DNA from: a virus
Strand: one strand, 5' to 3'
Length of the DNA stretch: 35,193 nt
Virus record (IMG/VR): IMGVR_UViG_3300013099_000051
Location: 1 to 35,193 of that record
The first letter of the stretch is position 1, and the number at the start of each line of letters is the position of its first letter. Below are positions 9,177 to 31,105 of this stretch, in pieces. Under the pieces are notes generated by a model. It was given only the letters and a program-made list of their open reading frames with translations. It did not search any database and had not been told where the DNA came from. Made by a program: the position numbers and the translations under genes.

Positions 9177-12100
9177 ATGGACTTCAAGGCACCAGGAGTT
9201 GAAGACGAGAGGCAGAGTTGGCTTCTCACTCAGATCCACGAAGCTCAGGGAACACTCGATTCCAAGATCGCTGAGGCAAACGCACTGCCTGACAGTGAGC
9301 TGTCGAAGGCTTCTCAAATCTCCAGACTGAACGCCATGAAGCGTGAGGTCAGCACCTCGTTCTCTGGGCTCGACTCAAGCGTGCAGCTGTGGGCAGACGA
9401 TGGGATCACGAGCCTCTACGAGGAAGGGTGGTTCATCGCTGGAAGAGAGACCGGCGCCTCGATGGAGTTCAGTCTTCCGCACCGAGAGGCGCTTGACGTC
9501 CTCTCGTGGGATGCGTACGACGACGTCGGCACGAAACTCCAGCAGTACTCAGCTGAGTTCGATCGAAAGATCGAGCTCCAGAAGATGTACCAGGGGATGG
9601 ATCCAGGAGACATCGCTCTCATTCAGACGAAGAGCAGAGAGGCGATAGCGCAGGCTCTGCTCACTGGAGAGGCAGATCCGAAGAAGGTCTCCAAGAAGCT
9701 CGCTGACGATCTGTGGGAAGACGGCGTCACCATCATCGACGCTGGTGGCAACCACTGGGAGATGGAGACGTACACGCGCATGCTTGTGCGCACGAAGTCA
9801 GCCAACGCCTACAGCTCTGGGACGCTCAACAAGTACGCCGAGGACGGCGTCAGTCGTGTGAAGGTGCACGATGGCGTTGTCGACGATGAAGAGTGTGCTG
9901 AGGCTGACGGCAAGACGTGGACGATCAAGTATGCAATGGAGCACGTGATCGAGCACCCAAACTGCCGACGTGCCTTCTCTGCGAAGCAGGGCCACGGGGC
10001 GGTCGACAACAAGGCGGCTGAAGAGCAGGTCGTGTCGATCAAGGCTGACCGCAGAAAGAACACGTGGCGTGACTGGGCCAAGGCGGTTAGACGTGCGTAC
10101 CGAACCGGAGAGTTCAACGTGGCGTCGACCACAGCGATCTACCTCACAGAGAAGGTGGCCGACAAGACCGGTATCTCTCAGCCACTTGTTCAGTTCGCTA
10201 CGAAGCTCACGCTCGGCAACTTCATCAAGGCTGGTGATGCGTACTTTGAGTCGCTCGTCGACCCAGTTCTCTACTCGATCGGTCTGATTGACAACATCCC
10301 ACAGCGTGCGATCTTGATGAAGGCGAAGTACCCGAGCAAGATCGTTGACGTGATCACTGAGTCGATCATGGCGGCGAACTTCGACGCGTTCGGATCTGTG
10401 GTTCATCCGAAGGTCAAGGCACTCACCACGATCTTGGACAAGGCATCTGAGTCGATACTCGGGAAGGGTGGGTACGCGTATCGAGCAGATGACTTCTATC
10501 GGAAGGTGACTCAGAGGGACGTCATCAAGATGTTCGGCCTGCTCACTGGAGAGCTCAAGAAGATCAACAACTTCGGCGTCCAAGTCGACGCCATGTACAA
10601 CGGGGTCATCAAGGGCTACATCACCGATGGCCTCAAGCACTACAAGAACATTCAGAGAACAGGAAAGAAGTTCGGAGTCGACATCGACCTCTACCGAGAC
10701 TACGTGGACCGCGCTCTCCGTGAGCTCGGGGTGAGTGAGGCTGACTACCGGAGAAAGAAGCGAGCGCTGGAGCAATACCTATCTGGTGGCGTGAGGCGCG
10801 TCCAGGATCCACAGGTGCTCCAGCGTCTCATGGATCCAATGGCTCGGCAGGCTGACGTATTGACGGCGTCTGTTGCTGACGCTCGCAAGCAGCTCGATGA
10901 GATCGTGAAGAACCTTGGGTGGGTGACGAAGACGAAGTCAGAGATCACTGAGATTCAGGCTCGGTTCTTTGGGAGGCTCCCGTCGATCATCGACGAGGAG
11001 GCGCTCAAGGCTGCGGTCAATGTGCGGTCCAGCGAGAACATTGCTCGGACAATCGCTGACGACATCATCGACGAGACGACCGGCACAGTGGTTGACATCA
11101 ACAAGTATCGGCGCAGCGTGACCGGCACAGCTGAGGTTGTAGACGAGCGGACGCCGTCCTCGGTGGCCGACTTCCAAGCGTTCGTGGCAACGAAGGAAGC
11201 TGCTGAAGCAAGGGAGACAGCTGATCGGATCGACAGTCTTGATGATCGGCTCAAGGCGCTCGGCAAGAGAGCTGAAGAGAACAGGCGCGCTCGTCTGGTT
11301 GAAGAGGGGATCTATGGTGACGACGGAACGGTTGCCAAGGTGCTCGACCTTGATGAAGCTCGTCTCAGGAGATGGTTCCGTGAGGCTGGCGAACCAGAAG
11401 ACCCAGCTCCGTCATGGCAGCTTCCGCAGGTGGCGACCGGCACCGCTGCTGGAACTGGAACAGGGTTCGGCATGGCGACCGGCACCGCTGCTGGCACCGG
11501 CACCGGTCTCAGGGCTGTGCCTCCGCACGCTGGCACTGACATCACCGGAGGCCGCAAGTTGACGATGGGTGCCGCTGCGGACGCTGTTGATCCGTTCGGC
11601 AACGAGACGATTCTTGGCCCAGACGACATGGACAATGTAATTCGGTACATGCGTGGGTCGCTGGACGACATCGATAGCACGTACAGCGAGGAAGCGATCG
11701 ACGACTTCGTCAAGTACCTCAAGCTGATCCAAGACGACGGGGAAGAGGGAGCTCTCTTCGCTGAGATCGAGCAGTTCATCTTCACGCTCAAGGGGCCAAT
11801 CGACATCCAGACCGGTCGACCAGTGGCGCTTACGAAGTGGGAGACGTTTGAGCAGGTCGTTGAGCAGCTTGAAGGGCTGAAGATCAACAGAGCTACCGGA
11901 GTAGCAGAGGTCAACGGCGTTCCTCTCGTTCCTAACTCACCTGAGAGCACCAAGTTCATCTGGTCAATGCTGGCGATTGAGCCAGAGTTCTGGGAGAAGA
12001 CTGGGTTCTGGCAGGACGTCATCGGGTTCGGGTCAGACACCGACATGATCTTCCGTCACCTCCCTCCGCAAGCTGAGTCCACGTATGAGCGCGGACAGCA

Positions 12101-15100
12101 AGCAGCTCGTCTGTGGAAGAACCTGATGGACGAGCTCCAGACAGTGAGCGACGGCATCGGCACAAGCCAAGTTCACTTCGGTAATCTGCGCAGATCACTC
12201 GATGAGATCTACGGCGCAGCGAATGTGTCGGTCATCGGTGACGCTGGAGTCAACGGAGAGATATTCAAGGTCATCGACGGCGACGGTCGTGTGTTCCTCA
12301 TCAAGCCGCTCACCTCTGGGCATGGCGGTGAGCCATACACCATCACGCTGTCACACGGCGTGTCCGACTTCATCGGCAGCAAGCTGGACGACATTCCAAT
12401 CTCTATCGAGACTCGTGTCATTCCTCTCAGTGAACAGGGCGAGGACTACATCGCCGTCATGCCGTACTTCGTTGGCGATCAGATCAGCGAGGCGTTTGAC
12501 GAGATCACCGCTGAGGGGATGTCTCGTCTCAACCTGTTTGACCGGCTTGTCATGGAGGCAGATCCGAACACTGGAAACTCGATGGTCAACAGGGCGAACC
12601 GTCGTGCTGTGTCGATCGACACTGAGTCCTCGTTCGCTCTACTCACGATCGGTGAGGTGCACCCAGGGATCGCTGACAGGGTTGTCGACTACGGATTCAA
12701 CGGTGAGCTGCCGTCGATATTCAGGATCAAGAACATCGAGGACTGGGTCGGCGGCACCGAGGTGTACCGGCGAGCAACGAACGCACCAGCGCTCACAGAG
12801 ATCAAGCTCACTCTCGCTGAACAGGACTTCCTAGTTCCAAGAGCTCGACGGTTTGTCTCAAAGGGCAAGGACGGATTCGCTGGTGGCGTGAACGTGGACG
12901 GAGTCAACGGCGGGGCAACGATTGAATGGAAGGGACTGCCGACGCTGGTGCGTGGCGACAAGGCGTCTCTGATCGGAGGTCGAGCCACAGTCCGCACCGG
13001 TAACTTCACGACGTACATGGAGGTAACGCACTTCGCTACGCCGAAGGAAGCGGAGCTCCTGCGCGACATGCTCGCCCGTAATCTTGATGACGAACTTGCA
13101 GACGTGATCAGGAAGCGTGTTGGTGAGCTGTCAGAAACGAGCAGGAGCAAGTTCATTGACCTGTGGGAGCCTGGCGGCACCCTCGACGAGGCGATCGACA
13201 GCGCTACAGCTCACCTCTCTGGTGTGTTCGCTCGCAGGGCTGAGTACCTGCTCGACAACAACATCGTCAACACGACTGGCGGCATCACCAAGCACGTGGC
13301 CGACGACGGAACCGTGTACGAGATTGGCAAGAAGATCGACATCGTCCGGACCACTGAGGCTGACCAGTGGAACCCGATGCACGGCATCGTCACTGACATC
13401 TTCGACGACGCTCAGGGCAGACGTCAGATCGTGGTGGCAAACGAGATGGGTCAGGGACACTCCACGAAGCAGCTTGAAGCGATCTTCGGTAGACGAGGGA
13501 CAGACCAGTACCACCGCGGTCCGCGCACAGAGATCTACGCAGACGAGTGGTCAGATGCTGTGACTGCTGAGCGTATTGAGACGAACACATTCGTTGAAGC
13601 GGTCCAAGAGAAGCTCGACACGAAGCACGTGAGACGTCGTACGTCTGACAGTCCTCGCGATGTTGATGTTCACGTGTACGACGCTGAGGGCGTTCCGGTT
13701 GGGTTCAGGACCGAGAACGTGCAGGTTCATGTCGACAAGCCAGGACGATCAGGTGTCCGATTCAGGAACGAGACTGAAGAGACGGTCGTGTCGTGGGAGC
13801 AGATCATCGACTCAGGAAAGGTCGATGAGCTCGTAGATGCTGAGCTTGCGAAGATGGCGCCAGCAGATCGACCGATGTCTGTCGTTGTCCACTTCGCTCC
13901 GATCAGAGACAGTGAGGGAGACATTGCGTTCGGCTACATCCGGATGGATGAGCGACAGCTCCACATCACTGTTCAGTCAGCGACACAGCTTCCGTCGTCC
14001 AGTGGTCCGGTCACAGGCCGCACCGCCATATCACTAGCGCGTGACGCTGATCTTGACGACGTGGAGTCCCTCATCGATACGCTCGACTGGGACGGATTCA
14101 CGTTGGTTCTGCGTCATGAGCTCTCGCACTCGATGGACTCAGGTCGCGAGGCAACACAGCGGTCTGCAATCGCCAAGAAGGTGGTGCAGGAGCTGCTCGA
14201 CGAGTACCCAGACGTCGACTCGATCGGCGCGCTCGATGATCTGCTCATGTACACCGGTGGTGTTGACCTCATTCCAAAGACGTACGTTCCGTCAAGACCG
14301 GACATGTCTGTCCTTGCCCAGCTTGTTGAGTATCGGGTAGAGCTCGTCGAGGACGTCATCAACACACAGCTCGTGCGTGAATCCAAAGAGGTGCTCCAGG
14401 CAACGTCGAGCGACGGGTCGATGCCGTCGTGGATGCAGAAGGCGTACAAGGGGATCCGTGAGGGAGATCCGGACGCTCACCACGAGTTCATTGCTGAGAT
14501 CTATACGAGAATCCTTGGGGTTGGAAAGGGAGCTACCGCAGCTGAGATCGACCGTGAGGTGTGGAGCCTGTTCGCCAACAAGCGAGCGGCGAAGAAGCTA
14601 CTCAGTCGATCTGACATTCCGTTGCCAAAGAGCTGGTATCCAAACTCGCCTGAGTTCGTTGCGTGGCTCCAAAGGTACACAGACGGCGAGATCATCCCGA
14701 GGCACCGGAGCACGAACACGAAGTTCTACCACGAGGAGATCAGCGGCAAGAAGCTCGCTCGTGAGATCTCAGAAGCTCTGGAAGCTGGAGCTGAAGAGGT
14801 TGGTGGTACGACGCACCTCACTGGGTTCCGACCAGACACTGGGTTTGCTGTTGCTCGTTCCGGAAGTGAAGAGATCGTCAAGCTGAAGCTGGACGTCACA
14901 CCAGAGATGCTGGAGAAGGCGCTCACCAAGGAGATCGACAAGTACCTCAAGGCCAACCGGAAGAGGTTCCTCGCAGAAGACGACTGGTACTTCGGCTACT
15001 GGCTTGAGCCAGCAAAGGGAGCTGATGGGGAGGACATCTTTGAGCTGTACCTCGACGTAACCAGGGTCATCGATGACGAGCTGGACGCTGCCTACTTTGG

Positions 15101-16934
15101 GTACCGAGAGCAGCAGAAGGCGATGTACCGACTGCACGACGGTGGCGAGACGATCAGACTCACCGACGAGACGCCAGACTTCAAGATGTGGCTCAACACT
15201 CACTACCCAGATATGACTGAGCACCAGCTGTCAATCATGCTCAACCGGATCGGTGCGTCAAGAACAAAGGTGAGCCCAACAAAGGACATCGTTGAGGTGA
15301 TAGACAAGAGAGGTCGAATGGTTCCGATCTCACTGGAGTGGATGACGAAAGCGATGCGTGAGCGCCTTCAGCATTCGTACATGCACGAGTACTGGTACGC
15401 GCAGACGAAGATAGCGAAGACCGGCAAGCAGAAGGGCAAAGAGGTTCTTGTCATCGTCAAGGACAAGGCTGTTCCGCTGGCATCTCGCAAGAAGGTTGTT
15501 GTCACCAAGAAGAGGATCAAGAAGAACTTTGAGCGGATCCTGAAGCAGGCTAGCGAGTACATCGGTGAGGATCTCGTTCCTGATTCACTGCCAGACAAGA
15601 GCTGGTTGTCGCGTAGGAGAGTGAAGCTGACTGGCGCAGCTGAGGACTCCAAGGAAACTATCAGCGCCCTCCGCAGAGCGTTCAAGACGCTCGACGAGAA
15701 CATGCTTCTTGCTCCGTACCGCTTTGAGCTCGATGAGATTCCACCCAACAAGGTGCGACTGTCCATGGCTCGCACACAGGACGAGGTTGTCTTGCTCAAG
15801 ATGGGCATGGCGTACGATCCTGACGGTCTGTTCGGCAAGGCGATGCGGGAGATGGGGTTCAATCCTGTCTCCAAGTACGCAGCCAAGGGAGACCAGGAGT
15901 TCTTTGCGGAGTCGGTACTTGCTGTGCTCACCGGCAGAGCCAGCGATGAGCTCACAGCAGTAGTCATTGATCTGTTGCCAGAGAATCAGAGCCTCAGGCG
16001 ACGTCATGAGATGCGGTTCTACCAGGCGTGGAACGGAGCATTCAAGGAGGTCGCATCCAACACTGGGATCTCTGTTGACCGCATCGTTGCGAACGCAGCC
16101 ATTCTCTCCGCAGGCATGGACGCCACGGTGAACCGTGCTGCTGGTGTTTGGATGGCGCAGATGGTGTCCGAGAATCACCTGTTCACGGCGGCAGAGGCGA
16201 AGGCGGTGCGCGCGTACTTCACTGATCAGATCGAGAAACGAACAAAGGACTTGAAACCCAACGGGAACAAGAAGACGTACGAGAAGAAACTCGCTGAGAT
16301 CGCCAAGTTCAAGAAGTACCGCGGCAAGGTCAAGGGTGGAATGCGCCTCGATGAGGCGATCACCAACGACATGGGAGCTCACATGCTCCAGGGCCTCACC
16401 AACACGGTGACTGAGCAGGTCATCATGCCTAACGGGGCCACGAGGAAGCTCTCTCTCACCGGTCGGTACGGCATGCCGCAGGTGGAGCGTGGGTACGCTG
16501 TTCTCACCGGCAATACATCTGTCAACGACGCACTAGGCGACACGAAGATCCGCTCGTTCTTCAACAACATCCTGGATCCGAAGGACTGGTACGCAGTCGG
16601 TGACGTGACCGTCGACTTCCACATGGCGAACATGGCTCTCTGGGTTCTCGGCATGCAGCTCCCGACAGCAAACTCTGACTCACCGAAGATCCTCGGAATG
16701 GCAGCGGGCCTGAGACCGATCGTTGGTGACGCACTACGTGAGTTGTTTGCCGACTCAGAATGGGGTACAATACTGGATGCAGACTCTCCCGCTGAGCTCC
16801 AAGAGCTCTTGTGGGAGATATGGAGACTCGGCTTTGAGAAGGAGAACGAATGGTGGGGAACAGTCCCGCAAGCGACGAAGGTACCGTACGATCGGCTGGT
16901 GGCCATGGGGTGGAAGCCTCCCCTGGAGAAGTAG
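9177..16934 (+). CDS. Giant MuF-type minor head protein with kinase-like, zincin-like and other domains
   Basis: The 2,585-residue product is one uninterrupted frame (ATG 9177, AGGGGG at 9165-9170). Residues about 190-265 are a MuF head-morphogenesis domain: Cys240 in DDEECAEADGKTW and the diagnostic HPNC (His260-Cys263). Residues about 270-740 are long helices. Residues 752-779 are a Gly/Thr/Ala linker with a 14-residue repeat. Residues about 1015-1155 look like a protein-kinase/HipA-like core: Lys1043 in FLIKP, DPNTGN (Asp1129-Asn1134) and SIDTE (Asp1148). Residues about 1560-1790 look like a zincin: HELSH (His1647-His1651) with downstream EFIAE (Glu1770/Glu1774). Residues about 1860-1990 hold a YFGYW...LYLDVTRVIDD module. 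The C-terminus (about 2290-2500) has IVANAAILSAG, KIRSFFNNILDP and VTVDFH. The MuF part should sit in the neck or head interior. The rest may enter the cell with the DNA. Only the MuF call is firm; other domains are motif-level inferences. Confidence 0.8.
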   Translation: MDFKAPGVEDERQSWLLTQIHEAQGTLDSKIAEANALPDSELSKASQISRLNAMKREVSTSFSGLDSSVQLWADDGITSLYEEGWFIAGRETGASMEFSLPHREALDVLSWDAYDDVGTKLQQYSAEFDRKIELQKMYQGMDPGDIALIQTKSREAIAQALLTGEADPKKVSKKLADDLWEDGVTIIDAGGNHWEMETYTRMLVRTKSANAYSSGTLNKYAEDGVSRVKVHDGVVDDEECAEADGKTWTIKYAMEHVIEHPNCRRAFSAKQGHGAVDNKAAEEQVVSIKADRRKNTWRDWAKAVRRAYRTGEFNVASTTAIYLTEKVADKTGISQPLVQFATKLTLGNFIKAGDAYFESLVDPVLYSIGLIDNIPQRAILMKAKYPSKIVDVITESIMAANFDAFGSVVHPKVKALTTILDKASESILGKGGYAYRADDFYRKVTQRDVIKMFGLLTGELKKINNFGVQVDAMYNGVIKGYITDGLKHYKNIQRTGKKFGVDIDLYRDYVDRALRELGVSEADYRRKKRALEQYLSGGVRRVQDPQVLQRLMDPMARQADVLTASVADARKQLDEIVKNLGWVTKTKSEITEIQARFFGRLPSIIDEEALKAAVNVRSSENIARTIADDIIDETTGTVVDINKYRRSVTGTAEVVDERTPSSVADFQAFVATKEAAEARETADRIDSLDDRLKALGKRAEENRRARLVEEGIYGDDGTVAKVLDLDEARLRRWFREAGEPEDPAPSWQLPQVATGTAAGTGTGFGMATGTAAGTGTGLRAVPPHAGTDITGGRKLTMGAAADAVDPFGNETILGPDDMDNVIRYMRGSLDDIDSTYSEEAIDDFVKYLKLIQDDGEEGALFAEIEQFIFTLKGPIDIQTGRPVALTKWETFEQVVEQLEGLKINRATGVAEVNGVPLVPNSPESTKFIWSMLAIEPEFWEKTGFWQDVIGFGSDTDMIFRHLPPQAESTYERGQQAARLWKNLMDELQTVSDGIGTSQVHFGNLRRSLDEIYGAANVSVIGDAGVNGEIFKVIDGDGRVFLIKPLTSGHGGEPYTITLSHGVSDFIGSKLDDIPISIETRVIPLSEQGEDYIAVMPYFVGDQISEAFDEITAEGMSRLNLFDRLVMEADPNTGNSMVNRANRRAVSIDTESSFALLTIGEVHPGIADRVVDYGFNGELPSIFRIKNIEDWVGGTEVYRRATNAPALTEIKLTLAEQDFLVPRARRFVSKGKDGFAGGVNVDGVNGGATIEWKGLPTLVRGDKASLIGGRATVRTGNFTTYMEVTHFATPKEAELLRDMLARNLDDELADVIRKRVGELSETSRSKFIDLWEPGGTLDEAIDSATAHLSGVFARRAEYLLDNNIVNTTGGITKHVADDGTVYEIGKKIDIVRTTEADQWNPMHGIVTDIFDDAQGRRQIVVANEMGQGHSTKQLEAIFGRRGTDQYHRGPRTEIYADEWSDAVTAERIETNTFVEAVQEKLDTKHVRRRTSDSPRDVDVHVYDAEGVPVGFRTENVQVHVDKPGRSGVRFRNETEETVVSWEQIIDSGKVDELVDAELAKMAPADRPMSVVVHFAPIRDSEGDIAFGYIRMDERQLHITVQSATQLPSSSGPVTGRTAISLARDADLDDVESLIDTLDWDGFTLVLRHELSHSMDSGREATQRSAIAKKVVQELLDEYPDVDSIGALDDLLMYTGGVDLIPKTYVPSRPDMSVLAQLVEYRVELVEDVINTQLVRESKEVLQATSSDGSMPSWMQKAYKGIREGDPDAHHEFIAEIYTRILGVGKGATAAEIDREVWSLFANKRAAKKLLSRSDIPLPKSWYPNSPEFVAWLQRYTDGEIIPRHRSTNTKFYHEEISGKKLAREISEALEAGAEEVGGTTHLTGFRPDTGFAVARSGSEEIVKLKLDVTPEMLEKALTKEIDKYLKANRKRFLAEDDWYFGYWLEPAKGADGEDIFELYLDVTRVIDDELDAAYFGYREQQKAMYRLHDGGETIRLTDETPDFKMWLNTHYPDMTEHQLSIMLNRIGASRTKVSPTKDIVEVIDKRGRMVPISLEWMTKAMRERLQHSYMHEYWYAQTKIAKTGKQKGKEVLVIVKDKAVPLASRKKVVVTKKRIKKNFERILKQASEYIGEDLVPDSLPDKSWLSRRRVKLTGAAEDSKETISALRRAFKTLDENMLLAPYRFELDEIPPNKVRLSMARTQDEVVLLKMGMAYDPDGLFGKAMREMGFNPVSKYAAKGDQEFFAESVLAVLTGRASDELTAVVIDLLPENQSLRRRHEMRFYQAWNGAFKEVASNTGISVDRIVANAAILSAGMDATVNRAAGVWMAQMVSENHLFTAAEAKAVRAYFTDQIEKRTKDLKPNGNKKTYEKKLAEIAKFKKYRGKVKGGMRLDEAITNDMGAHMLQGLTNTVTEQVIMPNGATRKLSLTGRYGMPQVERGYAVLTGNTSVNDALGDTKIRSFFNNILDPKDWYAVGDVTVDFHMANMALWVLGMQLPTANSDSPKILGMAAGLRPIVGDALRELFADSEWGTILDADSPAELQELLWEIWRLGFEKENEWWGTVPQATKVPYDRLVAMGWKPPLEK
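11431..11494 (+). repeat. 22-bp direct repeat encoding a Gly/Thr/Ala linker
   Basis: The same 22 bases occur at 11431-11452 and 11473-11494, a period of 42 bases or 14 codons. They encode two units of the form [VM]ATGTAAGTGTG[FL] inside the giant MuF protein. The composition marks a flexible linker separating the head-binding N-terminal part from the enzyme-like part. The repeat could expand or contract by slippage without breaking the frame. Confidence 0.85.
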
Positions 16935-17317
16935 ACCCCACCACTGGTGTTCCGATCGAGGATCTCATGGTGAGCGCCGCCACAGTCGGCACGCTCTACG
17001 ATCCAGCCACGGACGATCCGTCACAGCCTGAAGAGGTTGCAGACGTAGACCTTCAAGAGCGCGGTACGCCAGTCATGATGGGCCAACACAAGGTCAACTT
17101 CGACAGCGACAAGGAAGTGTCTGAGCTCGGCAAGGGGATCGCTGCGGCCATTCTCAATAAGGCTCGCAAGTTGGGAATGGAACCGAGCGGCAAGCGGACT
17201 GAGGGATCAGCAACAACGATCGTCAGCATCGGCGGTGTCGCTATTCCTGAGGAGCACGGCAACAGCCGTGAGGACGCTGACTCCTACCTGGAGAACCGAG
17301 CAAGGGAGAGTGGCTAA
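16850..17317 (+). CDS. Hypothetical protein in the head-tail connector region
   Basis: This encodes 155 residues if it starts at ATG 16850, which has AAGGAG (16839-16844) at 5 bases and overlaps the giant gene by 85 bases. ATG 16967 with GAGG nearby is a shorter, non-overlapping alternative giving 116 residues. The N-terminus is low-complexity and acidic. Residues about 80-110 form a helix (VSELGKGIAAAILNKARKLG). No known family is recognised. The stop overlaps the next start as TAATG, so it belongs to the structural operon. Confidence 0.6.
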   Translation: MVGNSPASDEGTVRSAGGHGVEASPGEVDPTTGVPIEDLMVSAATVGTLYDPATDDPSQPEEVADVDLQERGTPVMMGQHKVNFDSDKEVSELGKGIAAAILNKARKLGMEPSGKRTEGSATTIVSIGGVAIPEEHGNSREDADSYLENRARESG

Positions 17318-17553
17318 TGGCTGTTCCATTCCACGAGGGGATCCGTGTCGATGACGTCGACATCAGCTTCAAGGATCCGAACATCCGAGGCGCTACGGGC
17401 TCGATCATGCACGCCGGTACCGAGGCTGATCGCGAAGACTTTGAGCGCTGGCTCAAGGAGGGTGTGCCGTACGACGACGCACTCCAGAACCTGGCGAAGC
17501 GGATTGCTCGTCGCGCTCAGCGTTCTCTTGAGTCCACGCAGGAGGAGATGTGA
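17317..17553 (+). CDS. Small hypothetical protein, connector region
   Basis: This encodes 78 residues, with ATG 17317 sharing its A with the previous TAA and AAGGGAGAG at 17302-17310 upstream. It opens with a beta-like segment (GIRVDDVDISFKDP) and ends with a charged helix (ALQNLAKRIARRAQRSLE). No family is recognised. The next gene starts with GTG inside its stop (GTGA). Confidence 0.6.
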   Translation: MAVPFHEGIRVDDVDISFKDPNIRGATGSIMHAGTEADREDFERWLKEGVPYDDALQNLAKRIARRAQRSLESTQEEM

Positions 17554-25792: not shown

Positions 25793-28700
25793 GTGGCAGT
25801 CACCTCACTCACGATTCTCTCCCCAGGATTCAGCGAGTTCGACACGTCTATTCTGCGACCACGTACGAGCGTCGTGTGGGTTGGTGGGACGGGGCCGTTC
25901 GACATCCTGTACGAGTGGGACACAGTGCAGACGTTCGACTCTGGGAACCTCGTCTCCGATCTGAATCAAGGCGTGGCGTCTCCAGACGAAGGCGTTCCTC
26001 CGTCAGATCTGGGACCGTTCGGGACTGACTGGTACCTCCGAGCCACGATCTACGACTTGTCAGACACCGGAGTAGACGAGATCCAGTCGATCTACAACGA
26101 CGCTACTGGTGGCACATTCACGCTGGTGTTCCTTGGACAGGAAACCGGAGAGATTGACTTTGACGCACCAGATGTAACCGTTGCTGCTGAAGGAACGCTC
26201 ACGCTCGACACGCAGCCGACAGATGGTGACACGTTCACAGTAGACACGAAGACGTACACGTTTGAGTCGGCGCTCACGAACGTAGACGGGAACATCGCCA
26301 TTGGTGTTGACCTCGCAGGATCGCAGGCGAACCTCGTGGCAGCGTTTGATCTGTCTGGAGTGGCAGGTACTGACTACGCCACCGCTATGACTGCGCACAC
26401 GTCTGTGGACATCGCTGCGTTCGCCACGAACGCTGCCGTACTCACCGCCAAGACATCGGGACCAGACGGCAACTCGATAGCGACGACAGAGACGTTCAAC
26501 GCAGGTACCAACGTCTTCGATGCTGCAACACTCGGCACTACGACGAAAGGCGCAACAGGACTCACTGAGCTTCTTGAAGCGATCTCTACGATCACAGACG
26601 TCACAGTCACAGGATCTGGTACGTCCGGAGATCCGTGGCTCGTCACCTTTGTTGACCCAGGCAATCGTGACGTACCGTTGATGACCACCACCGACACGAA
26701 CCTCACTGGGCACACAGTCGGTACGACGATCGCAGAGGACACACAGGGTGTCTACCCCGCTGGAACCGTTTCCCCAGGGACCGGCTTCCACATACTCAAC
26801 TTCATCGACCCATCTGTGAACGCTCGGTTCCTCTACGCTCAAGCGAACATCGGTGCTTCGTTCGGTCCAGGTGGCATTGCAGCTGAGCACAGCGACGGAG
26901 ACCCAGACGAGTTTCCACGATTCATTTACGCCAACGCGAACGTCGGAGCAGGTTTCGGATCAGACACTGACGGACCTCTCGGTGACGGAGAGCCGAACGA
27001 CTCAGATCGATTCCTGTACCTCAACGCCAACATCACAGATGAGCAGCCGTGCCCGTACCTCCAGAAGATCGCTCCAACACTCACCACGCAGGGTGGCGCT
27101 ATCACGCTCTACGGTGACTCATTCGGCGCTACCTCTGGGACGTACCAGGCCGAGGTGCGGCTCTATGAAGACCAGGACAAGAGCGGCTCGTATACCGTGC
27201 TCGCTACTGGTGACTGGGCAGACACACAGATCAGCGCCATTGTTCCAGCAGCGGCTACGACTGGTTGGGTAGCGGTCGTCCACACCAACGGACTAGAGAC
27301 GTGCGTTGGATCCAGAACACGACTGCTCACGATTGAGTTGGTACCTCCTGACCCAGACGCTGGGTGGTGGCTCAAGACTGCAAACCGGCTCAACGTGCCA
27401 ACCGCTGAGCACACGGTTCAGCCAGGTAACAACGTCACAACGTCGTTCCGCAAGATCATGAACTCGATCGGGTCAGGTCGTCTTGAGCTTCCGCTCGGTG
27501 ATCCAGTGATCAACGACTTCGTTGATCCTGTCACCCGCAAGGGTGTGATCGTTCAGACGTTCATAGACAAGAGAATGCGGTACGCCTGGTTCGCTGAGAA
27601 TCTGTCGCACGACTACGACGAAGAGGGCAACGCTGTAGCAGTCATCTCTGGCCGAGGCATGGAGGTTGTGGCGCTCTGGAACAAGCTCCTGCCGCACGAC
27701 TACCCAGCGTCCCCTACGAAGAATCCGACCTGGATCTATGGGTCCACCGATAACTTCGTCCAGAACCCTGGCTTCGACGACGCAGCTGACAACCCAATTC
27801 TGAGTAACCCTGGAGGCGAAGACGGAAACGACGACGACGGCAACGCTGAGGGCTGGTCAAAGCGTGGCGATAACGTCATCAGCTACACAGCGATCCAAGA
27901 CACTAACGCTGCAATGGAGGACGACTGGTACATCGAGGTGGAAGCCTCGGACAACCACTCAGGAATCCAACAGTCTGTCTCGGTGACGCCCAACCGGACG
28001 TACCACGTTCGCACCTACGTCAAGGATCCTCTCGCCTCTGGCATGCGTGTGACTCTGGCGCTCGGTGGAGCTGATGACATCGCAGCGACCGGTACCTACG
28101 GGAACAACTTTGAGTTTGGCAACGAGATCCTTGCCGAACTTGATAACGTAGCCCGCAATCCTTCTGGTGACGGAACACCTGGCGGTGCAACAAACGGCAA
28201 CTGGCAGGTACTCGACGTTGAGGTGCAGACCGGTGACGAGCAGACATCACTTACGATCTCCATCCAGAACGATCATCACCAGAGCGGCATCTTCAACCCG
28301 TTCTGGATCGACCACACTGAGATCGAGGGCTGGGGTCTCGGGCTTGAGCCGTGGAAGGCGTACCAGCCGTCACATCACGCATCAAACAGCTTCCGACTTC
28401 AGACTGTCAAGACGTACGACGCATCACCGTACGGTCTGTACCTCAACCCACTAACAACGTGGGCTGGGATCGAACAGGTCATGCCGGTCAACCCGCTTAC
28501 CAAGTACACGATGTCGCTCTGGATGTTCACCGGACTCGCCAATCCAGACGACACGTTCAAGCTAGAGGCACACAAGAACGACGGACTTGACACCTGGATT
28601 GGCACTGCTGACGAGAAGGTACCAAACGACAACGGCTGGACTCAGTACCAGATCATATTCACGACGGACGACATCACTGAAGAGCTGGTACTCAGGTTCG

Positions 28701-31105
28701 TGTACTCGGGACCGAACAACCCGAGTCCTGCGTACGTCGACTCGGTGTCTGTTGTTCCAGGAGAACCACCATCAACCGCTGGTGTGATCCTCAACGACAT
28801 TCTCAACAAGATGAACGACCACGGGAAACTCACGTACCTTGGGGATGAAGTGTCCCGTACGTTCACCGATGGTCTCGACTCCGCAGGACAACCGTGGCCA
28901 GCAGCACTGTCGCTTGATCTTCAGCCGAGCGAGTCACTCTACGACGTGCTCGGTCGACTCGTGGCACTTGGTCATGAGTGGGAGATCGTTCCGTCTGGGT
29001 TTGCTGAGGGCGGTGACACCGGCTTTGAGCTGAACGTCTACACAGCACGACCATTCTCACCAGAGAGCGGAATCGGAATCAACTGGATCAACGACCCAGA
29101 GGGTCCGGTCATCATGCCTGGTGACGCCACCATTGGTGGGCGCATGCTCAAGTCAGCGTTCAACGTCAACACGGTCATGGCGATCGGTGACGACGGTTTG
29201 TGGTCTCGGGTCACTCAGTACCCCTGGCTCGACGAGGACAAGCAGCCGACAGACCCAGCCGAACACGGCTACCGAGACGCCTTCGGATCGATCGAGGATG
29301 TCCTCTCAGTGTCTGCTGGGGATACTCAGACTATCGCTCAGTACGCGCAGGCTCGTCTCGCTGACGCAAAGGACAAAGAGCGAGCAATCCAGCTTCAGAT
29401 GCAACGGAGCTCGGTGATTCGTCCGTTCATGAGCTTCAAGGTTGGTGACTCGCTCTACGTCGACATGCCGCCGACCGATCCTGATCCGATCGTGGACTAC
29501 GGAGACGGCTACACACGTTCATACCCGAAGCGGATCCGCTCGATCCAGGCTGATCTTGCAGGTGAAGGATCAGACATCACGTTCCAGGTCGACATCGATC
29601 GTGTGATCTACGAGGACGAGCTCGCTTGGTTCGCTACGATCGCCCAGCTCGCTGAACGTGATCCTGGCGGCACATCTGGCCAGGGCACCGGCAACATCAG
29701 CGGCACTGGCGGCGCTGTGTCTGTGGTGGTCGGTGGTAGCACTACCGGTGACGTTGCGCCGCACAACCACAGCATGAAGTCGACGGAGATCAGGGACAAG
29801 GCAGCGTCTGGTGACGTGTCTGGAAGCCTGCCTGGTCCGCTGACGGTGAACGCTGTCAAGGGCCAGCCGATGTCTGGTGCGATCCCGTCACCGACAACCC
29901 CAGAAGATCCGCTACCGGTTGTCAGGGTCTACGACCGCGACACGCTTACCTGGACACCGGAAGAGTTTGAGGCTGGGAGTGGTGGTGGTGGCGTTGCGAC
30001 AGACGCTGCGTCAGCACGCATCTATCGCTCTGCTGCGTTCTCAGTCGTGGACGCTGGAACCAACAACTCGACGCTGCTCTCGTTCGACGCTCTCGACTAC
30101 GACACAGGAGACGGCGTGTACGCCAGCGGCACACCGACTCGACTGACCGCTCCAGCGGACGGCACCTACCTGCTCAACGCGAGCATCGGCGCACAAGGGT
30201 CGATGGCGAACGACTGGTTCCGATTCCAGTTCATCAAGAACGGCACCGAGGTCATCGGGCAGCGTGGGCTATCGGTCGGCGGTGGCGATTGGCCGATATG
30301 GGATTACTCGCTTGTTGTCGAACTCGCCGCTGATGACTACATCGAAGTCCAGTACGAGAACCGTGGGGGAACCGTAACTGGATGGGCTGGAGCGAACACG
30401 ACATTCCTCTCGATGACACAACTCGTCGGCGGCGGTGCTGCTGGTTCGTCATGGTCTCCGATCCTCGATACTAAGACGACCGGTGACGACCCACCGGACG
30501 ACGAGTTTGACTCCACGACACTGGACGGCAAATGGACCGCTGTGTCTGGTGCGGCAGGGACTGTCAACCTGTTTGAGACTGGGGCTATCTCGGTTTACGA
30601 CCTGGCAACCCGAGAGGGGATGCTTCTGCTCCAATCGGATACGTCTCCGGTCTCACTCCGTCAGGATTACACGCTCGCTGACGGCGCGTCGATCATCATC
30701 GCGATCTCTGGTATGCAGAACTGGGGCGGCGACAACGCCCGCATCGGTCTGTCCCTGAACGACAACGACACAGATCGCACTTCTGGCAACGCCGTGCATT
30801 TGTTCTACGAGCAGGACGGGAACGGTCGCGAACTCCAATGGATGACCGGCACGGACACCGCTGGCAACGAGGTTCAATACATTGATCTTGGACGCTTGTA
30901 CTTCCGTATCGCTCGGGTCGGACTCGTCTACCACGGCATGGTCTCGACCGATGGAATGTCCTGGTACAACTATGATCGCGACACGATGCCTGGTGCACTC
31001 ACGAACATTTGGATCACGGCAGACGGCGGCGGCAACGACGTCGTTCCGATCACGGCGATCGACTGGATCCGACTGGGCACCAACGACTTGGACCCATGGA
31101 CATGA
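25793..31105 (+). CDS. Large modular minor tail protein, receptor-binding candidate
   Basis: This encodes 1,770 residues from GTG 25793, with AGGAGG (25782-25787) at 5 bases. Domains in order by pattern: an N-terminal beta region (residues about 1-110); a beta repeat starting TLDTQPTDGDTFTVDTKTYT (about 138-320); three short repeats around residues 345, 376 and 406; an IPT/TIG-like Ig domain (about 425-515, GGAITLYGDSFGATSGT); a Gp37-like tail hub segment (about 535-640); carbohydrate-binding jelly-rolls (about 650-990); a long assembly region; the tail-fibre hinge motif GDVSGSLPGPLTVNAVKG (about 1341); a C1q-like jelly-roll (about 1400-1546); and a concanavalin/DUF1349-like final domain (about 1560-1768). 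Such a chain of sugar-binding folds fits a baseplate protein that contacts the host cell envelope. Domain names are recognised by pattern, not by search. Confidence 0.78.
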   Translation: MAVTSLTILSPGFSEFDTSILRPRTSVVWVGGTGPFDILYEWDTVQTFDSGNLVSDLNQGVASPDEGVPPSDLGPFGTDWYLRATIYDLSDTGVDEIQSIYNDATGGTFTLVFLGQETGEIDFDAPDVTVAAEGTLTLDTQPTDGDTFTVDTKTYTFESALTNVDGNIAIGVDLAGSQANLVAAFDLSGVAGTDYATAMTAHTSVDIAAFATNAAVLTAKTSGPDGNSIATTETFNAGTNVFDAATLGTTTKGATGLTELLEAISTITDVTVTGSGTSGDPWLVTFVDPGNRDVPLMTTTDTNLTGHTVGTTIAEDTQGVYPAGTVSPGTGFHILNFIDPSVNARFLYAQANIGASFGPGGIAAEHSDGDPDEFPRFIYANANVGAGFGSDTDGPLGDGEPNDSDRFLYLNANITDEQPCPYLQKIAPTLTTQGGAITLYGDSFGATSGTYQAEVRLYEDQDKSGSYTVLATGDWADTQISAIVPAAATTGWVAVVHTNGLETCVGSRTRLLTIELVPPDPDAGWWLKTANRLNVPTAEHTVQPGNNVTTSFRKIMNSIGSGRLELPLGDPVINDFVDPVTRKGVIVQTFIDKRMRYAWFAENLSHDYDEEGNAVAVISGRGMEVVALWNKLLPHDYPASPTKNPTWIYGSTDNFVQNPGFDDAADNPILSNPGGEDGNDDDGNAEGWSKRGDNVISYTAIQDTNAAMEDDWYIEVEASDNHSGIQQSVSVTPNRTYHVRTYVKDPLASGMRVTLALGGADDIAATGTYGNNFEFGNEILAELDNVARNPSGDGTPGGATNGNWQVLDVEVQTGDEQTSLTISIQNDHHQSGIFNPFWIDHTEIEGWGLGLEPWKAYQPSHHASNSFRLQTVKTYDASPYGLYLNPLTTWAGIEQVMPVNPLTKYTMSLWMFTGLANPDDTFKLEAHKNDGLDTWIGTADEKVPNDNGWTQYQIIFTTDDITEELVLRFVYSGPNNPSPAYVDSVSVVPGEPPSTAGVILNDILNKMNDHGKLTYLGDEVSRTFTDGLDSAGQPWPAALSLDLQPSESLYDVLGRLVALGHEWEIVPSGFAEGGDTGFELNVYTARPFSPESGIGINWINDPEGPVIMPGDATIGGRMLKSAFNVNTVMAIGDDGLWSRVTQYPWLDEDKQPTDPAEHGYRDAFGSIEDVLSVSAGDTQTIAQYAQARLADAKDKERAIQLQMQRSSVIRPFMSFKVGDSLYVDMPPTDPDPIVDYGDGYTRSYPKRIRSIQADLAGEGSDITFQVDIDRVIYEDELAWFATIAQLAERDPGGTSGQGTGNISGTGGAVSVVVGGSTTGDVAPHNHSMKSTEIRDKAASGDVSGSLPGPLTVNAVKGQPMSGAIPSPTTPEDPLPVVRVYDRDTLTWTPEEFEAGSGGGGVATDAASARIYRSAAFSVVDAGTNNSTLLSFDALDYDTGDGVYASGTPTRLTAPADGTYLLNASIGAQGSMANDWFRFQFIKNGTEVIGQRGLSVGGGDWPIWDYSLVVELAADDYIEVQYENRGGTVTGWAGANTTFLSMTQLVGGGAAGSSWSPILDTKTTGDDPPDDEFDSTTLDGKWTAVSGAAGTVNLFETGAISVYDLATREGMLLLQSDTSPVSLRQDYTLADGASIIIAISGMQNWGGDNARIGLSLNDNDTDRTSGNAVHLFYEQDGNGRELQWMTGTDTAGNEVQYIDLGRLYFRIARVGLVYHGMVSTDGMSWYNYDRDTMPGALTNIWITADGGGNDVVPITAIDWIRLGTNDLDPWT
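26825..27034 (+). repeat. Three short protein repeats in the large tail protein
   Basis: The motif RF[LI]Y.[NQ]AN[IV] occurs at residues 345, 376 and 406 of the large tail protein, spaced 31 and 30 residues apart. Each of the first two is followed by a G.[SG]FG segment and a run of Asp/Glu/Gly. The acidic loops could hold calcium ions, which is an inference. The DNA is diverged between units, so these are old repeats. Confidence 0.75.

Follow-up and report, generated by a model that had tools for sequence, protein, structure and literature searches.

A 2,585-residue MuF gene in a siphovirus head module

The window, that is, the whole stretch of DNA analysed, is a virus contig of 35,193 bases and represents a 35-kb fragment. 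The ORF and translation check revealed an ATG-started frame at 9177..16934 (+) that encodes 2,585 aa without an internal stop, so that the 7.76-kb frame of the original prediction was present exactly where it had been placed. GC bias by codon position continued all along 9177-16934, with a third-position GC of 0.68-0.74, and 100 shuffles of the window gave no stop-free run above 365 codons. The frame is a real coding frame.

The setting of this gene is a siphovirus head module, downstream of the major capsid gene. The gene order starts with terminase (TerL), portal, phrog_3219, a capsid-like protein (phrog_3116), a small ORF and the MuF gene; small ORFs, neck, tail terminator, tail tube, tape measure and Dit follow, and the last part contains a 1,770-aa protein with a carbohydrate-binding domain, an endolysin and a DNA polymerase. 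Upstream of the terminase, an ORF at 572-1216 matched endonuclease VII-like and Lar-like (restriction alleviation) PHROGs. The 1,770-aa tail-region protein (25793-31105) carries a CBM_4_9 domain, and a segment of about 60 residues within it (264-322) shares 55% identity with a small ORF that, in the relative L005, is located between the genes for capsid and MuF (L005:5665-6132). A WhiB-like transcription factor gene is located at 1053-1625; since WhiB proteins are not known outside Actinobacteria and the phages of this group, this gene suggests an actinobacterial host, and the host of this uncultured phage is probably an actinobacterium. In contrast to this pointer, the nearest cultured relatives of the capsid protein are phages of Firmicutes.

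A scan with an alignment of the capsid protein found the collinear relatives L005, L094 and L096-L098, as well as the partial L095. Their MuF proteins differ widely in length: 2,787 aa in L005, 2,229-2,233 aa in L094 and 927 aa in L096-L098, compared with 2,585 aa in the window. Searches with the whole protein yielded no match in 50,697 phages (tblastn) or in the PDB (phmmer); a reverse-strand tblastn match inside the MuF gene was set aside as chance.

Table 1. Features of the MuF gene and of the ORFs that follow it (window coordinates)
Feature	Position	Strand	Residues and remarks
MuF / minor head (SPP1 gp7-like) domain	9177..10046	+	1-290; H260-P-N-C263
R2 module	10059..10646	+	295-490; mainly helical
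Spacer	10647..12146	+	~491-990
Putative minimal atypical (HipA/PI4K-like) kinase	12174..12656	+	~1000-1160; K1043, D1129, N1134, D1148-x-E1150
M2 module	13224..13571	+	1350-1465
Z1, predicted zincin metallopeptidase	13860..14576	+	1562-1800; H1596, HELSH 1647-1651, D1654, E1770
Q domain, alpha/beta	14694..15356	+	1840-2060
Z2, second zincin, predicted to be decayed	15474..16001	+	L2207 K2208 M G M2211 A Y D2214 vs L005 H-E-I-G-H-Q-L-D
C domain, DUF7178-type, putatively HhH-GPD DNA-glycosylase-like	16014..16931	+	2280-2585; K2457, D2480, H2482
Small ORFs, candidate accessory or immunity genes	16850-17317, 17317-17550	+	no PHROG match

A chain of predicted enzymes behind the MuF domain

The MuF call of the original prediction, which named His260 and Cys263, was borne out by three results. 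Residues 159-255 matched Phage_min_cap2 (PF06152) at 41.6 bits against a cut-off of 26.3 (E 1e-10), PHROG minor head proteins matched residues 15-264 (phrog_4611, E 7e-17), and H260-P-N-C263 was the same in all three long relatives. TIGR01641, the more specific model of SPP1 gp7, scored 16.1 bits, under its NCBIfam cut-off of 39.65. The protein resembles the minor head proteins SPP1 gp7 and Mu gp30 in its MuF domain and its place in a head module, but differs from them in the about 2,300 residues after the MuF domain and in the position of its gene downstream of the capsid gene.

Directly after the MuF domain lies the R2 module, whose profile matched twice over its full length in L005 (iE 2e-86 and 2e-85) and once in L094; in L005 (7683-9000) this module of about 190 residues is thus present in two copies and in the window in one. 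Its AF2 model was of low confidence. The spacer that follows was poorly conserved in L005 and L094, with pLDDT mostly below 50, and contains a direct repeat rich in Ala, Gly and Thr (11431-11506). The M2 module was kept in both L005 and L094 (iterated profile, E 4e-45 or better).

The kinase-like set of the original prediction is supported by conservation and by structure matches. G1024, N1026, G1027, K1043, D1129, N1134, D1148, E1150 and F1153 were invariant in four relatives, and the order K1043, D1129, N1134 and D1148 corresponds to the Lys, catalytic Asp, Asn and metal Asp of kinases. The AF2 model of residues 280-1479 was poor (mean pLDDT 39.6); kinase-fold proteins nevertheless made up 50 of the 50 matches listed, for Foldseek as well as for VIA, and these matches fell on model positions 720-820, that is, residues 999-1099, with a best VIA Z of 6.0. 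For one matched kinase without a full C-lobe, the alignment reached over the catalytic loop. A sequence profile placed the catalytic loop of PI4K2B (PI4K type 2-beta) in register (E 1.7), and HipA_C matched the L096 version of the region (E 0.012). These lines, though individually weak, converge on the same residues, and a kinase fold at residues ~1000-1160 is therefore supported at the level of sequence and model. Comparison with PHROGs, Pfam and phages gave chance-level matches only, and a scan of viral sequences with the kinase pattern found only the contig of L005. The Gln in the last N-lobe strand that marks the polyvalent kinase group was absent in the window, L005 and L094 and present in L096, and no His of the HxD type of this group was found in the window; since the Gln and the His-Asp insert of the group are lacking here, we classed the domain only as HipA/PI4K-like. 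That group has been reported mainly from prophages of Verrucomicrobia-Chlamydia and Bacteroidetes (PMC5512222), whereas the window phage has a WhiB gene typical of actinobacterial phages.

The zincin-like HELSH claimed earlier is present at residue 1647. The motif alone proves little, because one HEXXH is expected in a protein of this composition with a probability of about 0.056; its His, Glu and His, however, align with those of two relatives (44% and 33% identical), which read HEINH and HEIGH. H1596, H1647, E1648, H1651 and E1770 were invariant in all three sequences compared, and we infer that E1770 would act as the third metal ligand in a following helix. D1654 was shared by the window and L005, and was replaced with Gly in L094. 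The phage-type clade of polyvalent metallopeptidases has a conserved His that ends core strand 2 and an Asp three residues past HEXXH (Iyer et al., PMC5512222); H1596 and D1654 resemble this extra His and +3 Asp, with a model that is weak around H1596. The top five Foldseek matches for residues 1480-2585 were clostridial collagenase peptidase domains, which carry HEXXH, at E values of 0.16-0.75 that are not significant.

The Q domain gave a confident model (pLDDT mostly 80-93 over the core). The family was also found in L022, L066 and L077, and, at residues 599-702 (iE 2e-18), within an internal virion protein of 1,610 aa from the T7-like phage S-CBP42; the gene of this Synechococcus phage protein (L206:4258-9090) adjoins a tail fibre gene. 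The order HEXXH, Q and C was identical in the window, L022 and L066. Comparison of Q with PHROGs and Pfam revealed chance-level matches only, and the viral scan with a Q pattern found only the contig of L005.

A second zincin follows at residues ~2203-2250, with its decayed motif LKMGMAYD at 15795-15818. Its counterpart is the second HEXXH at about residue 2407 of the L005 MuF protein, and the alignment reads HEIGHQLD...SKY...DELWSES in L005 and LKMGMAYD...SKY...QEFFAES in the window. The L005 copy had a weak Zincin_1 match (E 0.16), and matches of Z2 to PHROGs, Pfam and phages were at chance level. The window copy lacks both His and the Glu and is predicted to be inactive. In L094, a Rho_N domain takes this position (29.4 bits against a cut-off of 24.9). 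With an intact copy in L005 and Rho_N instead in L094, the Z2 of the window is predicted to be a pseudo-enzyme in the making.

The original prediction had listed a kinase, a zincin and a C-terminal motif set, all of which held, but it had missed the decayed Z2, the Q domain and the identity of the C domain. The structure prediction and Foldseek search that it had proposed as a check returned kinase-fold and collagenase matches, together with a VIA match to hOGG1; across all structure searches, however, no PDB match had a Foldseek E below 0.04, and no VIA Z reached 8.

The C-terminal domain and its resemblance to DNA glycosylases

The C-terminal motif set proved to be a conserved domain found in about 80 viral contigs, often within ORFs of 1,000-3,500 aa. 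The window copy scored 26.2 bits with DUF7178 (PF23802), just under the cut-off of 27, which was exceeded by L005 (28.0), L022, L066, L082 and L062; with an iterated profile of the C family, whose seed includes the window sequence, the window copy matched at E about 1e-50. The domain recurs beside head genes: L041 encodes MuF (~216-281) and C (~1301-1512) in one ORF, and gp40 of Roseobacter phage CRP-738, which contains the C domain, is encoded between the portal and coat genes. A standalone short C domain is encoded by many Mycobacterium and Streptomyces phages, mostly as 'hypothetical protein' (e.g. Popcicle gp87, L205:1456-2031). Among the matches listed, the short homologue was labelled 'glycosylase' in three mycobacteriophage records.

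Analysis of 55 sequences showed that S2311, N2319, K2457, R2459, N2463, N2464, D2480 and H2482 are invariant. The model had a pLDDT of 85-96 over the core, in which K2457 starts one helix and D2480 lies just before the next. In the VIA search, the domain matched hOGG1 (6rlw, Z 6.3, rmsd 4.9, 181 residues; 2noe, Z 5.8, 185 residues), and hOGG1 was the only domain-wide match (>125 residues) among the matches listed. Matches of the model of residues 1480-2585 to Vip1 phosphatase, ABC transporter and flagellin structures were judged to be helical noise. The likeness to HhH-GPD glycosylases such as hOGG1 and endonuclease III lies in the order of helices, in the Lys and Asp at successive helix starts and in the domain-wide hOGG1 match; unlike these enzymes, the C domain carries an insertion of additional helices and a beta hairpin ahead of the Lys. 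The spacing between Lys and Asp is 23 in the window, and 18 in both Popcicle gp87 and E. coli Nth. In the best local alignment by hhalign of the actinophage version with proteins of the endonuclease III/MutY type, a gapless stretch of 32 residues pairs the two Lys and the two Asp (P 0.055).

On the basis of sequence conservation and the structural model, we consider that the C domain probably has an HhH-GPD DNA-glycosylase fold. The alternative, a different helical DNA-binding or nucleotide-acting domain with a fortuitous resemblance to HhH-GPD, appears rather unlikely. In its favour, the domain showed no significant sequence-profile link: profile-profile comparison of the C family with E. coli Nth and MutY gave no significant score, profile comparison of the whole family with 25 genome-derived and E. 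coli HhH-GPD proteins gave no support, PF00730 had no match in the window, and sequence profiles from the PDB returned only unrelated low scores; a VIA Z of 6.3 is also within the range of chance helical arrangements. A fortuitous resemblance fits less well with hOGG1 as the single match longer than 125 residues among those listed, with a Lys and an Asp that are invariant at helix starts throughout the 55 sequences, and with actinophage versions that share the 18-residue spacing of Nth in a gapless alignment.

Payload exchange and a proposed delivery with the DNA

Comparison of the collinear relatives revealed that they keep the head genes and swap the payloads behind a conserved head domain. 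Identity to the window in L005, L094 and L097 was 84%, 70% and 59% for TerL, 74%, 65% and 50% for the portal, and 75%, 71% and 55% for the capsid, respectively; in the MuF region, it was about 70-71% (core) in L005 and 43-46% in L094-L098. The 927-aa MuF proteins of L096, L097 and L098 are identical to each other. The MuF region of L096 is 43% identical to that of the window although the payload differs: Z1, Q and C were not detected in this 927-aa protein (L096:6042-8807), which has a kinase-like motif set of its own (NNDSHEHN ... IDLERTFG) about 200 residues past MuF. As this 927-aa protein, with MuF and the kinase-like region only, occurs alongside the same head genes in collinear relatives, the payload is dispensable for capsid building, and its exchange behind a conserved head domain is the pattern of effector cargo, which argues against an essential role in assembly. 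A genome scan with the C-terminal pair found nothing; a genome scan with the capsid alignment found Firmicutes, unclassified genomes and one Acidobacteria MAG, with the payload domains absent from the stretch examined.

Conservation and fold place at least two disparate domains in one polypeptide, namely MuF, a predicted kinase, a predicted zincin and the DUF7178-type domain. The reading that we favour, and hold to be fairly probable, is a MuF-anchored polyvalent protein in which MuF is followed by a kinase, a zincin, Q, a decayed zincin and a DNA-glycosylase-like domain, as cargo that would leave the head with the DNA. The multi-enzyme, polyvalent interpretation of the original prediction thereby gained independent evidence from the MuF domain, the kinase fold, the zincin, the conserved C domain and the payload swaps. 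In SPP1, the portal targets gp7 to the procapsid interior, and virions without gp7 assemble normally and are only about 25% infectious, which indicates that gp7 supports infection (PMC6316719). By analogy, the MuF domain would most likely bind the portal and bring a few copies into the procapsid, and the C-terminal ~2,300 residues would form a string of enzymes on helical spacers, with activities predicted from conservation and fold. The whole protein, or pieces released by the zincin, as has been proposed for the processing of polyvalent proteins (PMC5512222), would then exit the head together with the DNA. Once in the cell, the kinase might phosphorylate proteins of the host or some other substrate, and the glycosylase-like domain might excise bases from host DNA or repair the incoming phage DNA. 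Entry into the host with the DNA is inferred from the MuF domain, the gene position, the Q homologue in an internal virion protein of the T7 type and the case of SPP1 gp7; the location of the gene after the capsid gene, and not directly after the portal gene, counts against the main reading.

A payload that acts only in the head or at the portal, in the processing of head proteins or in DNA exit, and never in the host, is an improbable explanation. MuF proteins are structural components, head proteins would be possible substrates for a zincin, and the SPP1 virions that lack gp7 would suit an aid to ejection as well; against this, Z1, Q and C were not detected in L096, where the capsid genes are kept, and it is hard to see what a kinase or a DNA-glycosylase-like domain would contribute to assembly. 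It is likewise unlikely that the protein is a MuF polymorphic toxin, in which the C domain would be toxic to competitors or to hosts that lack immunity, and immunity would come from a small ORF downstream of the gene. Such toxins (Jamet et al. 2017, PMC5576092) do share with the window protein a MuF N-terminus, a long enzymatic C-terminal extension and small ORFs behind the gene. Both small ORFs of the window have relatives in L005, and the second also in L094, and none were found in L096 after its short-payload MuF gene. MuF toxins, in contrast, have been described from temperate phages, whereas the genes examined on this 35-kb fragment include a DNA polymerase and no integrase; several chained enzymes suit the polyvalent pattern better than a single toxin tip, and the C domain is also a standalone protein of actinophages.

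The polyvalent reading agrees with the proteins of that class (Iyer et al. 2017, PMC5512222) in the chaining of unrelated enzymes in one phage polypeptide, in a virion gene module, in a zincin as the common hub and in a kinase and MuF among the domains listed, and differs in that the main text of that study names no DNA glycosylase. In the literature searched, no mention of DUF7178 was found, and the domain combination appears to be new, as does the presence of a glycosylase-like domain in a head protein. 'Novel injected effector', as the original prediction put it, overstates the class, given that effectors of the MuF-fused and polyvalent kinds have already been described (PMC5512222, PMC5576092); what appears new is the combination of domains and the glycosylase reading of the C domain.

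More tentatively, a virion-delivered DNA glycosylase of the DUF7178 type may be a recurrent polyvalent warhead across several lineages of phage heads, accompanied here by a kinase and by an intact and a decayed zincin; within minutes of the start of infection, it would excise bases either from the DNA of the host or from phage DNA that is modified or damaged. If this is true, a Pfam family of unknown function, with 83 cultured-phage records and many metagenomic contigs, could be tested for an activity in DNA base excision, and the virion would be the likely route of its multi-domain versions. This lineage would show a head protein that exchanges enzymatic payloads, with one zincin decaying while another stays, and self-processing effectors inside heads would become a testable idea, for which the short actinophage homologues in cultured phages of Mycobacterium smegmatis offer an immediate test bed.
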